Of a stretch of DNA of 35,785 bases, positions 1,399 to 33,959 are shown piece by piece. The first letter of the stretch is position 1. Each line of letters opens with the position of its first letter. Made by a program: the position numbers and the translations under genes. This stretch comes from an uncultured Oscillospiraceae bacterium (lineage in GTDB: Bacteria; Bacillota; Clostridia; Oscillospirales; Oscillospiraceae), in contig CATONV010000022.1 in the NCBI GenBank assembly GCA_951801655.1, positions 1 through 35,785 on the forward strand, given 5' to 3'. The notes under the pieces were generated by a model, which was not told the origin of the DNA, made no database searches, and saw only the letters and a program-made list of their open reading frames with translations.

Positions 1399-3204
1399 AT
1401 GCGACACCGCACGCTTCTCACCCTGGGCCTCAGTCTGGCCCTCACCCTCTCCCTTGCCCTTCCCGCAACCGCCTACGACTCCGCCCGGCCCGACACCCCC
1501 CAGCTCATGAGCGGCGGCGCAGCGGAGAGCTTTTTCGTCGACGGCGGCGGCACCCTGTGGGCCTGGGGCGCCAACGAGTTCGGCCAGCTGGGCGACGGCA
1601 CCACCCAGGACCGCTCCACCCCCGTCAGAGTGCTGGAGGGGGTTCTCTCTGTGAGCGCCGGGGAGTCCCACACCTACGCCGTCTTGCAGGATAACACCCT
1701 CTGGGCCTGGGGGAGAAATGTCAGCGACGCGTTCCCCAATTCCCCAGACCTGGTAAACAGCACCAGACCTGTAAAAATCATGGACGATGTGGCCTCAGCC
1801 AGCACTGGAGTGTGTACCCACCTGGCCGTCAAAACGGACGGCACCCTGTGGGCCTGGGGCAAATACGTGGGCGACCGGACCAACCGGCAGCGGTCTGAAC
1901 CCGTCAAGATCATGGACAACGTGACCGCCGCCTGCACCGGCTTCGGCCACAGCCTGGCTCTGAAGGGGGACGGCTCCCTCTGGGCCTGGGGGCAGAATCA
2001 CGACGGCGAGGTGGGCGACGGCTCCGGGCGGGAGCGGCCCACCCCGGTCAAGGTGCTGGACAAGGTGGTCTGCATGAGCGCCGGCTACGGCTTCAGCGCC
2101 GCCGTGCGCTCAGACCACACCCTCTGGACCTGGGGCCGCAACTGGCAGGGAGAGCTGGCAGACGGCACCATCTGGATCTGGGGGCCCAGCTGGAAATGGG
2201 AATCCGATGACCCGGAGGAGAACGCCATACTCCAAGAAACCCTGAGCGCCTGGATTGAAAAATGGGGGCCAGATGTCAGCCGGGATCACTCCATCCCCAC
2301 CAAGGTGCTGGACCACGTGGTCTCCGTCCACCTGTCCAACAACAACGGTTACGCCCTGCGTGAGGACCAGACTCTCTGGGCCTGGGGGAACAACCACTCG
2401 GGCGACGTGGGAGACGGCACCACAGAGGATCGCTTGTCTCCTGTTCTGGTACTCACCGGCGTGGAGGATGTCAGCGTGGGCTGGGACCACGTCCTGGCGC
2501 GCAGAACCTTCGGCGCACTTTGGACCTGGGGGTCCAACGTCAGCGGCCAGCTGGGCAATGGAGAGAGTCTATTCTACGGAAACTATGTGCCCCGATTCTC
2601 CGCTTTTCCCATTCAGGTAATGGCGGATATCGACACCGGAACCCCCTCTCACGTCTCTCCCGCTGACGGCAGCCGTCCCGCCGCCTGGGCCGCCGCCGCC
2701 GTGGACGAGGCCATCGCCTGGGACTTCCTCCCCGTCAGCCTGCGCATCCACTACGATCAGACCATCACCCGGGCCGAATTCTGCTCTCTGGCTGTCCGCC
2801 TTTACGAGAGCTGCACCGGCCAGGAGATCGAACAGTCCCAACGGGTCAGCTTCTCTGATACCCAGGATGTCAATGTGGAAAAGGCTGCCGGACTGGGCAT
2901 CGTCTCCGGCGTGGACGGCGGCGCCTTCAGTCCCGACACCCCCCTGAACCGGGAGCAGGCCGCGGTCATCCTCGCCGGCCTGGCCCGTGTGCTGGACGTC
3001 CCCCTCCCCCAGGCCGTCCCCGCCTTTGACGACGCCGACGATATCAGTCCCTGGGCCCGAAGCGCGGTGGGGCAGGTTCAGGCGGCCGGCATTATGAACG
3101 GCACGGGAGGCGGCTTCTCCCCCCGGAACACCTACACCAGAGAGCAGAGTGTGGTTACCCTTGTCAACCTGTTCCACCTGCTGACCGGGGAACAAACTGG
3201 CTAA
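1399..3204 (+). CDS. Secreted RCC1-repeat protein with SLH anchor domains
   Basis: A 601-residue exported protein. Residues 1-25 form a signal peptide ending ATA, with likely cleavage before YDS. Residues ~30-410 are RCC1-type beta-propeller blades, each marked by (T/S)LW(A/T)WG and GDGT; about seven complete blades are visible. One blade near residue 255 carries an extra ~40-residue Trp- and acid-rich stretch beginning GTIWIWG. After a linker, residues ~430-600 hold three SLH modules, the first degenerate, the next two with FSDT/FDDA...GGFSP...REQ patterns. SLH modules bind secondary cell-wall polymers, so the propeller should be displayed on the surface as a binding scaffold. The ribosome site is TAAGGAGG at 1384-1391. 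The ligand is unknown. Confidence 0.9.
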   Translation: MRHRTLLTLGLSLALTLSLALPATAYDSARPDTPQLMSGGAAESFFVDGGGTLWAWGANEFGQLGDGTTQDRSTPVRVLEGVLSVSAGESHTYAVLQDNTLWAWGRNVSDAFPNSPDLVNSTRPVKIMDDVASASTGVCTHLAVKTDGTLWAWGKYVGDRTNRQRSEPVKIMDNVTAACTGFGHSLALKGDGSLWAWGQNHDGEVGDGSGRERPTPVKVLDKVVCMSAGYGFSAAVRSDHTLWTWGRNWQGELADGTIWIWGPSWKWESDDPEENAILQETLSAWIEKWGPDVSRDHSIPTKVLDHVVSVHLSNNNGYALREDQTLWAWGNNHSGDVGDGTTEDRLSPVLVLTGVEDVSVGWDHVLARRTFGALWTWGSNVSGQLGNGESLFYGNYVPRFSAFPIQVMADIDTGTPSHVSPADGSRPAAWAAAAVDEAIAWDFLPVSLRIHYDQTITRAEFCSLAVRLYESCTGQEIEQSQRVSFSDTQDVNVEKAAGLGIVSGVDGGAFSPDTPLNREQAAVILAGLARVLDVPLPQAVPAFDDADDISPWARSAVGQVQAAGIMNGTGGGFSPRNTYTREQSVVTLVNLFHLLTGEQTG

Positions 3205-8837: not shown

Positions 8838-9058
8838 AGCTATCCCTCCCGCTGATTTTTCAATATCTTACCATAGAAACCGAAAATCGGAAAGACTAAA
8901 ATCTTCTTTTCCCATATAATCGACAATTTTCGATGTTTTTACCCATATTTCGCTTGTGCATGGAAGTCGGATAGTCCATATTTCTTATCAGGGAGAATTT
9001 TCCACCATTTCCGTGGAAAAACTACCCAGAGAAAAATAGACGTATGGAGGTATTCACT

Positions 9059-13379: not shown

Positions 13380-14684
13380 TTACAGATTTGACGGCGGGAC
13401 CGCCGGCTCCAAAATGGGAACCGCCTCTCCCCCCTCTGAAATGATCAAAAGGAACGGATCGCTTCGCCGGGCCAGCGCCTCCTCCAGCGCCTGCTGCAGC
13501 CGGGCCTGTGCATAGTGTCCCATCCCCGCCCGGGCACACTGGGCCGGCGTCATACCGTCGCTGATGAGGGTCATGCGGCACTGCCGGGCAATCCGGCCCA
13601 TACTCACGCCAACCGCCATGGTCAGCAGGTCTTCCCCGGTCTGTCCGGCCTGGACCCGCATTTCCAGCTCCTTTTGTCCCTGATCCATCCCCATATAATC
13701 CAAAATTTTTGGGTGGGGTCCCACTCCCTCGGAACAGGCGGCCAGCAAAAGCAGCTCTCCTCCCTCCGGAAGCACGCTGGCCGGGCCGTAGGCCGCCTTG
13801 CCGCACTGCCAAAAGTCCATATAAATGGGGTAGGCCGAGCTCAGCACAACGTCGGGCCGCCGGCTGAGTGCAATGCCATAAATTTCCCGGGCAAAGGAGA
13901 CCGCCTTGCGCTGGGCCTGGATGTAGTGGCCGGCAGTTACTGCGTACAGCTCCATGTTCTCGTCCAGGACCGTGTTGACAATGTAGTGCAGACCGATCTG
14001 TGCGGTCCATTTCTCCACAGCCAGCCGGGTGGGCGCCTCCACCATGCCCAGGAGAATTTCCTCCCGCAGGCCCTGCATCACATGAAACTGCGAGACAATG
14101 TCCGCCGCAGTAATGCCCGGATACAGTATTTTCGCGCCGCCGCTCCACCCCATGCAGCCATGGGGCGCCACGCTGCCGATTCCGATTCGCACATCCGCCT
14201 CCATGGCGGGGGCGAACACGCGAATGGGTGTGCCCAGCTCGCTGCAGCCAACCTGGACAAGCCGGTCCGGATTTTCAAACTCGCTGTTGTACACCCGGTA
14301 GCGGTCGAAAATGTCCTGGCCCAGCTTGGAAATCATTTCCTCCCGCGTCATGTACCGGTGGCTGCCCAGGGCCATTACAATGAAGATATCCTCCCGACGA
14401 ACCCCGGCGCCTTCCATGCGGGGCAGCAGTTCCTTCAAAATCAGGGAAACCGGGGTCATTCGGGTGTTGTCGTCACTGATGATACACACCTTCTGCCCCG
14501 GACGGACCACCTGCTCAATGGGCGGCGCGCCCACCGGCCGGTCCAGCGCGGCGCGCACCGCGGCGGCCGGATCCGCCGTACGCCGGCCCGGGCTCAGACG
14601 GGCACATTGAAAACGCACTCCCGCCGGCACGAAAACCGAATAGCTCTCGGCCCCGCAGCGCAGAAAAGTTGTTCTGTCTTCCAT
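13380..14684 (-). CDS. larA: LarA-family nickel-pincer 2-hydroxyacid racemase
   Basis: A 434-residue member of the lactate racemase family. The start ATG 14684 (MEDRTTFLRC) avoids overlap with dctM, which ends 13 nt upstream. Key residues fall almost exactly at LarA positions: D72 and R75 (SDDNTR), H109, H175 (VAPHGCMGWSGG), K185 (GGAKILYPG, the lysine that carries the nickel pincer cofactor) and H201. The enzyme should interconvert stereoisomers of a 2-hydroxyacid by hydride abstraction. The family also handles acids other than lactate, and placement behind a TRAP transporter suggests the substrate is what the transporter imports. The cofactor genes larB, larC and larE are not in this window. 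Family sure, substrate open. Confidence 0.85.
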   Translation of the reverse strand: MEDRTTFLRCGAESYSVFVPAGVRFQCARLSPGRRTADPAAAVRAALDRPVGAPPIEQVVRPGQKVCIISDDNTRMTPVSLILKELLPRMEGAGVRREDIFIVMALGSHRYMTREEMISKLGQDIFDRYRVYNSEFENPDRLVQVGCSELGTPIRVFAPAMEADVRIGIGSVAPHGCMGWSGGAKILYPGITAADIVSQFHVMQGLREEILLGMVEAPTRLAVEKWTAQIGLHYIVNTVLDENMELYAVTAGHYIQAQRKAVSFAREIYGIALSRRPDVVLSSAYPIYMDFWQCGKAAYGPASVLPEGGELLLLAACSEGVGPHPKILDYMGMDQGQKELEMRVQAGQTGEDLLTMAVGVSMGRIARQCRMTLISDGMTPAQCARAGMGHYAQARLQQALEEALARRSDPFLLIISEGGEAVPILEPAVPPSNL

Positions 14685-31485: not shown

Positions 31486-32004
31486 ATGAGTGATATAATA
31501 AATCATGGTTACAGTAGGAATATTGAAGGACAGAATAACGACTTGCAGAAAAAACCAGAGCAATTAAAGCAGTCTGATAAATGTGGAAGTCAAGCGCAGG
31601 CATTTCGACAGGATTTATCGACATCAGATATGGTGTATCTATACTACATAGAAGGTTATTCATATAGAAAAATCGCAAAGAAAATGGGGTGTTCCCCTAG
31701 TACAGTTGTGAACCGTCTAAAAACCGACAACGCACAATTTGAGCTATTTATGCTTAAGTATGCTTGTGGTTACGGTCAAATTATAAAAGAAAGGCATATT
31801 AAGAAAAAAATACAACCATCAAAACAATCTATAAAACGTGGATTTAAAGCGCACGCATTTCGCAGGGATTTATCAACAGATAAGATGTTGTATCTTCGTC
31901 AGGAAAAGCAATATTCATATAAAGACATCGCAGAAGAAATGGGGTGTTCTCCTAGTACGGTTAGAAACCGTCTAAATAATGAGAACCTTTGGGATGAATT
32001 ATAA
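31486..32004 (+). CDS. Protein of two tandem helix-turn-helix units (172 aa)
   Basis: A DNA-binding protein built from an internal duplication. Residues 32-87 and 117-172 align without gaps at an offset of 85 residues; both contain AFR(Q/R)DLST, then YSY(R/K)(K/D)IA(K/E)(K/E)MGCSPSTV and NRL. This is a helix-turn-helix of the sigma region 4 / resolvase C-terminal type: a YSYKDIAEEMG helix, the GCSPSTV turn and recognition helix. The linker ~88-116 is basic. The duplication is obvious at DNA level too (31579-31746 and 31834-32001), so it looks recent. No catalytic domain is present. It may bind one of the repeat families in this island. Ribosome site AGGAG. Confidence 0.8.
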   Translation: MSDIINHGYSRNIEGQNNDLQKKPEQLKQSDKCGSQAQAFRQDLSTSDMVYLYYIEGYSYRKIAKKMGCSPSTVVNRLKTDNAQFELFMLKYACGYGQIIKERHIKKKIQPSKQSIKRGFKAHAFRRDLSTDKMLYLRQEKQYSYKDIAEEMGCSPSTVRNRLNNENLWDEL

Positions 32005-32331
32005 TCCTTAATTGCACGATTTTGTTTGTTAATTGCACAGATAACTTATGATTTTGGTGGGGCAGTTATATATTGAGGTATGACTGTTTTCAATCAATTT
32101 AAGTTTTGGAAGAATCAATTAGATTGATATAATAAACAAAGTCATTCAATAGAAATCAGTTGGCAGGTTGTTCGTGTACTGTGGGGAAGAAAAGTTTAAA
32201 GAGATAGGGGGCTTGCCCCCATACCTAGGAAATATAGTAAATAGAGCATAACCCACCATACAAAAATTAAATAGCCTTTACCTTCATACATACCACATGT
32301 GACTACTGATAAATGGAGTATAAAAAACAGA
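32005..32331. other. AT-rich gap before the folded RNA region
   Basis: No gene. Contains a G5-CTTG-C5 hairpin (32207-32220) without a T-run. TATAAA (32319-32324) could be a -10 for the RNA that begins near 32331; its -35 is poor. Confidence 0.4.
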
Positions 32332-32705
32332 AAGGGCACCGACTATTTTAGTTGGTGCCCTTGAAATATTCTATTGACGGAGATGGTATCATGCGGTAGA
32401 ATAAAGATACGAGGTAACGAGTAGTGCGGGCAGGCCTAGAGGGCGGCAACCCCCTAGGCCCTGTGCAGGATGAGTGAGCATCCATACACAACTGCGTTAG
32501 CAGTACCACATACTTAGTATAAATCATTAAGGCTGTATTTTCAAGATGTTTATACTGGTTGTGTAAGCACATGGCAAAGATTGATTGTGCGTGTATGGGT
32601 AAGTTAAAATACCTGTATGCGCATTTATTTGTTATCTCGGCAGTAGAAGCCATGCGGGGAGCATACCAGCCGGGTATGTGTCCCCCATGGTGGAGCTGTT
32701 GAGAT
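32331..32705 (+). ncRNA. Elaborately folded RNA candidate (~375 nt) upstream of the SH3 lipoprotein gene
   Basis: Almost the whole stretch can be assigned to helices: (a) 32332-32344/32350-32362; (b) 32367-32376/32394-32403; (c) 32433-32439/32454-32460 with inner GGG/CCC; (d) 32468-32472/32479-32483; (e) 32486-32492/32558-32564 enclosing CTGC-GTTA-GCAG and 32516-32523/32549-32556; (f) 32589-32601/32610-32622; (g) 32634-32638/32701-32705 and 32641-32643/32696-32698 enclosing 32650-32690. In a, b and f there are one, two and four G-U pairs when read on +, which become A-C mismatches on minus, so + is favoured. Against this, the minus strand has a T-rich run after helix a and a weak promoter (TTGCGC-17 nt-TATCGC). 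It is either a long leader of the next gene or a separate RNA. I recognise no known class. Confidence 0.5.
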
Positions 32706-32771
32706 TAAAGCGATACATTTGATTCAGCCACCGCGCAAATCAGAATGTATTGCAACAAGGGAGGAAAAGAA

Positions 32772-33500
32772 ATGAAGCAAAAGGTTTTAATTAGCGGCTT
32801 ATCTCTGTTACTGACCTTTTCATTGGCAGGCTGTGGGGGTCAGCAAACCCAACAGGAGCCGCAGGAGCCAAAGCAGGAGGTTCAGCAGAGCGGAGCAATT
32901 AGCACAGAACCACCAGCAGAGCCGTTAGAGGTAAAGCAGGAGGTTGTACCAACAGCCACAGCTGTACCGAGTGAAGCTGACCCAGCGGAAGAAGTAGCAG
33001 ACCAAGAGGAAGATTTGACAGAAGAGGTACAGTTATTCACTGATTGTAATGAGACGGTGTATGCAACGGGGACAGTGAATCTCCGCAATGGAGCAGGAAC
33101 ATCCTTTGAAAAAGTGGGTTCACTCAACACGGGAGACAGTGTAACCCGTACAGGCATCGCAATAGCAGGCACTGAAGCAGAAGGCTGGAGCAGAATCCAA
33201 TTAAGTGACGGAAGTATAGTTTATGTGTCGAACAAATACTTAAGCACCTCAAAACCCTCAACTGGTGGAGGTAATACTCAAAATAGACCCAGTGGAGGTC
33301 AGCAGCAGACTCAGCCATCTGGTGGAGGTCAGCAAGACACCCAAGGTCCCACCCCTGGCTACAATCCATGGGAAGACGATTATTCAAATATATTCGTAGA
33401 TACTCGCACCGAAGAACAAAAACAAGCAGACCTTAAAAAGACTCAAGAAGCATCCGAAGGACTCACCGGAACCATCCAAGCAGGAGGCCTCGGCAACTAA
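32772..33500 (+). CDS. Lipoprotein with bacterial SH3 (SH3b) domain
   Basis: A 242-residue exported lipoprotein. The start ATG 32772 (MKQKVLISGL) follows GGGAGG. The signal ends LAGC with lipidated C21. Residues ~22-95 are a low-complexity Gln/Glu/Pro/Val linker; residues ~97-158 form one SH3b domain (VNLRNGAGTSFEKVGSLNTGD, GWSRIQLSDGSIVYVSNKYL), usually a peptidoglycan-binding module. The tail (~160-242) is rich in Gly, Gln, Thr and Pro. It probably sits on the outer membrane face and contacts the wall; in mobile elements such proteins can serve surface exclusion or conjugation. The gene lies 67 nt after the folded RNA region and ends before a strong terminator. Confidence 0.85.
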   Translation: MKQKVLISGLSLLLTFSLAGCGGQQTQQEPQEPKQEVQQSGAISTEPPAEPLEVKQEVVPTATAVPSEADPAEEVADQEEDLTEEVQLFTDCNETVYATGTVNLRNGAGTSFEKVGSLNTGDSVTRTGIAIAGTEAEGWSRIQLSDGSIVYVSNKYLSTSKPSTGGGNTQNRPSGGQQQTQPSGGGQQDTQGPTPGYNPWEDDYSNIFVDTRTEEQKQADLKKTQEASEGLTGTIQAGGLGN

Positions 33501-33941: not shown

Positions 33942-33959
33942 GGCTAGTTAAAAAATTAG
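33942..33959 (+). repeat. Dispersed CTAGTT repeat, copy 1
   Basis: GGCTAGTT followed by AAAAAATTAG. The other copies are at 34153, 35078, 35637 and 35668; rough consensus RRCTAGTTRAAAAATTA. Confidence 0.55.

Follow-up and report, generated by a model that had tools for sequence, protein, structure and literature searches.

The gap upstream of an SH3-domain lipoprotein gene in an uncultured Oscillospiraceae bacterium contains a strongly structured RNA that is probably a cis-acting transcription attenuator, with a core that would serve as the sensor, most likely as a riboswitch-like aptamer and less likely as a protein-binding site. The RNA looks like a large and poorly known control system positioned before genes for surface and secreted proteins. 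All positions refer to the window, by which we mean the whole 35,785-nt stretch of DNA that was analysed (contig CATONV010000022.1). Homology, covariation, promoter, terminator, competing pairing and gene position were each computed, and the features of the locus are as follows.

32374-32402, plus strand: promoter, with -35 element TTGACG (32374-32379), a 17-nt spacer and -10 element TAGAAT (32397-32402); 10/12 in a consensus scan
~32408-32639, plus strand: the RNA proper, a block conserved in homologues; its predicted start follows from the promoter, and it ends with the closing helix past the terminator
32410-32418 with 32631-32639, plus strand: helix P1, CGAGGTAAC with GTTATCTCG, from covarying complementarity and duplex energy
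32430-32466, plus strand: hairpin A, with a terminal loop that varies among copies; from covariation
32468-32483, plus strand: hairpin B, with a hypervariable loop (AGTGAG in the window); from covariation
32482-32489, plus strand: antiterminator strand CCATACAC, overlapping hairpin B and helix J; its partner is GTGTATGG at 32591-32598
32486-32491 with 32559-32564, plus strand: helix J, ACACAA with TTGTGT, spanning 32486-32564; from complementarity compared with permutations
32492-32503, plus strand: hairpin C, enclosed by helix J
32516-32522 and 32542-32545, plus strand: AGTATAA and CAAG of an arm also enclosed by helix J
32589-32632, plus strand: intrinsic terminator, a 13-bp hairpin at 32589-32622 with a U-rich tract (32623-32632) directly behind it; from a terminator scan
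32634-32705, plus strand: 3' hairpin of the read-through leader, recurring in homologues
32772-33500, plus strand: lipoprotein gene with a bacterial SH3 domain (SH3_3, E 4.6e-10) and a ribosome site, GGGAGG, at 32759-32764

The plus strand of 32331-32705 folds at -159.4 kcal/mol, compared with a mean of -109.4 (sd 5.9) for shuffled sequences (z -8.5), a value equalled by none of 100 shuffles; the minus strand gives a z of -6.6. The RNA in this gap is real and strongly structured, but the bounds assigned to it in an earlier, sequence-only reading are wrong. That reading described a plus-strand RNA of about 375 nt, of which selection on the plus strand, the folding and a length of a few hundred nucleotides stand, but not the 5' boundary at 32331. 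The helix it placed at 32332-32362 sits 5' of the promoter, and none of the other aligned sequences has an equivalent (a similar hairpin is found at locus L009 of another genome), and the helix it placed at 32367-32403 overlaps the promoter itself. The TATAAA at 32319-32324, proposed as the -10 element, is not the promoter of the RNA, since homologues share the promoter at 32374-32402, which puts the start at ~32408. The hairpin at 32589-32622, the branched arm 5' of it and the closed 3' domain at 32634-32705 are all present and recur in homologues. The reading had also found no frame with a ribosome site. By a check of frame lengths only, no coding frame is obvious: the longest stop-free frames between core and terminator in 11 copies spanned 35-75 codons on the plus strand and 56-77 on the minus strand. 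A protein-coding interpretation of the region was rejected on these lengths, and the minus-strand ORF had no Pfam match.

Searching 400 genomes of the family by blastn with the window RNA gave matches in nine, including the window's own genome; two loci matched by blastn, L008 and L009, proved on reading to be other sequence and were rejected as homologues. We give the distribution from R1, a covariance model built on the 100-nt core from a hand-made structure, which has at least 302 matches in 128 of the 400 family genomes, and which is found in 53 of 394 genomes drawn from the order and 8 of 391 drawn from the class, the window's genome being included in each count. A second model, R2, is matched in six of 259 genomes drawn from the phylum, that is, in five besides the window's own at E values up to 1e-4; the copies in G1338, G1314, G1189 and G1350 share the layout of the RNA as judged by eye, and the match in G1261 is weak (29.3 bits).

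With these relatives in hand, the three hairpins of the core covary, and the pairing on the plus strand appears to have been kept by selection, as the sequence-only reading had supposed. That reading had argued from G-U pairs, an argument that the covariation now supersedes. In an alignment of 101 rows, 98 of them distinct, hairpins A, B and C together have a covariation score of 0.548, compared with 0.177 (sd 0.006) for column shuffles and at most 0.088 for slid versions of the structure; this result is favoured to some extent because the alignment was fitted to the model. Both sides have changed in 21 of 23 pairs, with 487 cells of compensatory change in the 98 distinct rows. By hairpin, both-side changes are seen in 12/14 pairs of A, 5/5 of B and 4/4 of C, and 89.7%, 82.0% and 96.9% of cells, respectively, are paired. 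One of the five covariation measures, the number of pair types, did not stand out: 68 of 500 shuffles scored as high. The copies are related, and the permutation tests reported here and below ignore kinship.

The core is flanked by recurrent signals for starting and stopping transcription. The promoter occupies the same position in homologues, just 5' of the core: in 79 of 123 copies, the 72 nt before the core contain a promoter matching at 9/12 or better, and 65 of these 79 end 16-21 nt before it. Promoters of that quality turn up in 20 of 123 base-shuffled stretches and, further upstream, in 3 of 64 stretches. A terminator hairpin with a U tract scores above threshold in 91 of the 116 copies with enough sequence and in none of 116 base-shuffled controls. 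Its U-rich tract runs into the 3' strand of P1, the helix that joins the two ends of the RNA. For P1, the complementarity of each copy's own strands (7.84/9; 98 copies) exceeds the maximum of 200 permutations (5.98), and the duplex energy is -24.5, compared with a permuted best of -16.9 (99 copies). Complementarity in helix J is 5.41/7 compared with a permuted mean of 4.94 and maximum of 5.16 (84 copies, 200 permutations), with 36 of the 84 copies reaching at least 6/7. Support for the 3' hairpin is less clear than for P1, at 7.08/8 compared with a permuted mean of 6.35 and maximum of 6.56 (98 copies, 30 permutations); this hairpin competes with P1, since its 5' arm, at 32634-32643, shares nucleotides with the P1 3' strand. 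We rejected a further helix, P2 (AUGCGG/CCGCAU), which would close hairpins A-C and seemed persuasive on inspection, as a family-wide element: its score of 3.31 lies between the permuted mean (3.20) and maximum (3.39) in 138 copies, with 23 near-identical copies from genome G122 left out. P2 may hold in a subset of copies.

The pairing that suggests a switch lies between the antiterminator strand CCATACAC and the 5' arm of the terminator, GTGTATGG, to which it is complementary. Both sides change together across copies, for example CCATGCAC/GTGCATGG, CTCAGCAC/GTGTTGAG and CCCGCGCA/TGCGCGGG. Mean complementarity within copies is 6.58/8, above the maximum of 300 permutations (5.86); 50 of 99 copies have at least 7/8, as do 17% of random cross-pairs, and the duplex energy is -15.1 compared with a permuted best of -13.9 (99 copies). 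The covariation of this pairing is shared with that of the terminator, because the antiterminator strand resembles the terminator 3' arm. From the 123 distinct copies, 99 entered the antiterminator test, 98 the complementarity tests of P1 and the 3' hairpin, 99 the duplex energies and 84 the test of helix J; copies were dropped when the terminator was missing (contig ends), low-scoring or distant, when the motif was absent, or when the finder chose another hairpin. Since hairpin B and helix J occupy the same strand, CCATACAC, the terminator and antiterminator states are mutually exclusive. The two states are close in energy in the window, at -78.1 for the terminator state and -76.6 for the antiterminator state (a gap of 1.5 kcal/mol); before the terminator 3' arm has been made, the values are -66.7 for the free fold and -66.6 with the antiterminator forced (a gap of 0.1 kcal/mol). 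Family-wide, the terminator is favoured by a median of 4.2 kcal/mol (83 of 92 copies; helix of at least six pairs).

We propose the following sequence of events. RNA polymerase would start at the promoter at 32374-32402, and the leader core, consisting of hairpins A, B and C and helix J, would fold first. While CCATACAC is tied up within the core by hairpin B and helix J, the terminator at 32589-32632 would form and transcription would stop before the lipoprotein gene; when CCATACAC is free, it would capture the emerging 5' arm of the terminator, and polymerase would read through. P1 and the 3' hairpin could then form in the read-through mRNA. What we infer here is that termination is under control, in which direction it is controlled, and that a sensor responds to a signal. 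The layout found computationally is that of a transcription attenuator, and it is riboswitch-like in having a conserved, covarying, aptamer-like core followed in cis by an expression platform with a terminator and an antiterminator. A riboswitch-like aptamer is the likelier form of the putative sensor, ahead of a protein-binding site.

The regulated gene in the window would be the lipoprotein gene at 32772-33500, named as an SH3 lipoprotein gene in the sequence-only reading too, with a product that has a signal peptide and lipobox by a heuristic. By a rule that looked only on the strand of the RNA, a first downstream gene is present in 104 of 123 copies; seven of the other 19 had less than 30 nt of sequence remaining. 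No gene lies behind the copies at L200 and L204, the latter in the window's own genome. Signal peptides, again called by a simple heuristic, were found in 60 of 85 first genes (those of at least 100 aa or running off the stretch), compared with 30 of 262 control genes (the other genes of the window and of 20 long stretches). Pfam domains among 94 of the 104 first genes include SLH (20, a lower bound, as proteins were cut at 450 aa or at the stretch end), LRR_5 (8), SH3_3 (5), the copper amine oxidase N-terminal domain (5), RCC1 (3) and HATPase_c (2), with single occurrences that include recombinase, TraX and TnpB-type domains. Because these functions are mixed (regulators, recombinase, TnpB, TraX), they indicate no clear ligand. 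In G1119, four of the seven copies read (L333-L336) precede closely related XRE-type regulators and one precedes a REC-GGDEF gene, as judged by eye.

Genome G122 departs from this pattern. Most of its near-identical copies are at contig ends. Eight are followed by 271 nt or more of sequence past the core, and in seven of these a 60-aa ORF begins there, not a surface gene. This small ORF family (MVDYxKMYLTxFNATEDAI...) follows the RNA at L308, L311, L312, L314, L319, L323 and L329, and appears broken at L319 and L329; L327 has kept the RNA without the ORF. Similar ORFs occur at L212, L213, L013, L214 and L012, and the two members of the family that were scanned had no PHROG or NCBIfam match.

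The position of these genes bears on two other functional readings. The RNA could stand alone, as a non-coding RNA about 230 nt long that acts in trans, with the terminator as its 3' end, P1 joining its ends, and the downstream genes reached by read-through or present by chance. It does have its own conserved promoter and terminator, P1 links its 5' end to the terminator tail, and some copies have no gene behind them. Nonetheless, we consider this unlikely, given that the next gene is strongly biased towards exported proteins, that the 3' hairpin recurs past the terminator, and that a competing antiterminator pairing would have no purpose in such an RNA. The free-standing ornate RNA imagined in the sequence-only reading is likewise less likely than an attenuator.

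The put and EAR elements are families of processive antitermination RNA, and a cis-acting RNA of this kind, binding RNA polymerase so that long operons are completed, would fit a large conserved core directly before surface-protein genes that are often long. Such elements, however, do not require their own terminator and a strand that competes with it, both of which recur here, and the RNA matches no Rfam family; we regard this reading as very improbable.

Returning to the proposed attenuator, its copies are numerous within some genomes: four in the window's genome, 29 in G122, 13 in G029, and 11 (R1) or 13 (R2) in G327. Copy numbers from the multi-genome searches are lower bounds, because 2, 10 or 15 candidates were scored per genome, and true numbers may be higher still, since assemblies seem to break at repeats of the RNA; in G122, G014, G424 and G474, many contigs end ~30-270 nt past the core. 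Named carriers, found by pattern scan and confirmed by profile, include Flavonifractor sp. AGMB03687 and Ruminiclostridium sufflavum; Colidextribacter sp. OB.20 carries a copy cut by the stretch end, Flintibacter muris has a partial match, and metagenome-assembled Sporobacter, Oscillibacter and Dysosmobacter carry the RNA by pattern scan and profile. Copies are chromosomal in the single-contig genomes G098, G355, G370 and G1119. Many genomes of the family carry the RNA, and it is not characteristic of phages: blastn with the window RNA found nothing in phage and plasmid records, and of three pattern scans of viral_contigs, the first yielded 36 stretches, none above 13 bits, the second none at all and the third a single contig. 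The one confirmed copy, on that contig (L224, 1268-1367, minus strand, 70.4 bits) precedes a gene that reads as exported. A phage or plasmid origin was rejected on the lack of blastn matches in those records and the single viral contig with a copy. The sequence-only reading had likened the RNA to the large ornate RNAs of phages and islands; the surrounding DNA does look mobile, but the RNA looks like a leader with a terminator, and it is chromosomal and common across the family. That it is only a mobile or repeated DNA element, with folding that reflects inverted DNA repeats without RNA function, is scarcely credible despite the many near-identical copies in some genomes, the contigs that break there and the hairpin A loop found in both orientations, because the promoter position is fixed, the terminator is directional, the long-range helices P1 and J covary, and the RNA is present in many families of the phylum.

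Several observations concern the arrangement of copies and the surrounding island. The terminal loop of hairpin A reads CGGCAA in the window and L010 and TTGCCG in L102 and L078; similarly, it is CGCCAA in L163 and TTGGCG in L219, as if the hairpin had been inverted. L220 has two copies, at 8927-9024 (minus strand) and 14398-14495 (plus strand), 5.4 kb apart and pointing outward, with the same downstream hairpin. In the window, 1399-3204 encodes an RCC1 and SLH protein of a type found behind the RNA elsewhere, with no model match nearby. The gene at 31486-32004, upstream of the RNA, encodes an HTH protein and contains an internal repeat at 255-nt spacing, its two units resembling sigma region 4, and a short repeat (~CTAGTTRA, often GGCTAGTTRA followed by an A-rich stretch) recurs between the island's small genes at 33942, 34153, 35078, 35639 and 35668.

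The RNA matches no family in Rfam 15. At the gathering score, the window and 20 homologous loci give tRNAs only, two of them in the window, consistent with the failure of the sequence-only reading to recognise a known family. Around the gap, at E values up to 10, there are three sub-threshold matches, the best being to the trpB motif (21.4 bits compared with a gathering score of 59; E 2.3). At E values up to 1, 16 loci give five matches, none of which recurs at the RNA. One of the five is an OLE RNA (RF01071, 122.8 bits, cut by the stretch end) that occupies 1-159 on the minus strand of L242, from genome G424, and adjoins a copy of the present RNA on the opposite strand.

GOLLD, ROOL and OLE are large structured bacterial RNAs; the RNA described here differs from them in having no Rfam match at its position, in its terminator with a competing strand, and in its position before genes. 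The c-di-GMP riboswitches are present in many copies per genome and control surface proteins and regulators, often through transcription termination. The present RNA would resemble them in all three respects, but has no Rfam match to c-di-GMP or any other riboswitch family. The trpB motif (RF04312; PMC11109978), as far as its description was available to us, is likewise a leader with hairpins, a terminator and a proposed antiterminator, and overlaps the window weakly, but the window's score is far below the gathering score. In the parts consulted of PMC8040213, PMC8632094, PMC11109978 and PMC10043782, no matching RNA is named.

The closest published candidate is the SLH motif, a proposed but unvalidated riboswitch with 80 examples in Synergistaceae, Clostridia and Negativicutes, ~60% of them before SLH genes, according to the portion of the report available to us (Stav et al., 2019; PMC6429828). 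Like the SLH motif so described, the window RNA has copies in Clostridia, and SLH is the commonest domain behind them (20/94, compared with ~60%). Copies were seen here in the window's order, in other families of the class and in families elsewhere in the phylum, and that description, so far as we could consult it (PMC6429828), does not include the copy number, attenuator pairing or hypervariable loop found here. Compared by description, the two RNAs may be the same. Our search for follow-up work on the SLH motif in the open-licence literature found none.

The hypervariable loop of hairpin B is the most divergent part of otherwise near-identical copies. Among 24 of the 29 copies in G122 (five divergent ones were left out), loop B is distinct in 22. 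Its mean pairwise difference is 0.65, compared with 0.28 for loop A, 0.20 for the linker, 0.09 for the promoter, 0.000 for the 5' side of stem A, and 0.007 and 0.000 for the terminator and its loop, the last two figures resting on 120 and 153 of 276 pairs owing to contig ends. Similarly, of the 13 copies in G327, seven were compared, and no two of them share a loop sequence, although their flanks scarcely vary; in G176, loop B differs too among seven aligned copies, but with more divergence elsewhere. The loop is T-poor (10% over 157 copies, with some loops misassigned). We looked for partners of the loop, with a finder that misassigned some copies and 126 copies with enough downstream sequence. 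Loop B was no more complementary to sequence at its own locus than permuted loops were (29 of 200 as high downstream, 74 upstream, 29 in the leader and 29 in the next stretch). The case for a direct downstream copy of the loop was borderline (10 of 200 as high), and pairing between loops A and B was absent (255 of 300 as high). Loop B may simply be free to vary in old copies that strong selection keeps constant elsewhere, or it may be a mutational hotspot or a product of diversifying selection; simple neutrality is made less likely by the linker value of 0.20. That the loop is a copy-specific address, read by another RNA or a protein, seems to us quite unlikely. If it were, members of the large gene set could be switched one by one, and genes for surface and small proteins would be under RNA-addressed control.

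The RNA described here is an unannotated leader, probably of the attenuator type, and may be identical to the SLH motif. The RNA is absent from Rfam 15 and, in the literature as we could search it, is represented at best by that 80-member candidate. About one in three of the family genomes sampled carries it (128/400), with 29 copies in one of them, mostly before genes for exported proteins. If the proposed mode of action is correct, these genes would rank among the larger RNA regulons in Clostridia of this kind, which would open up the question of how the cell surface is set.
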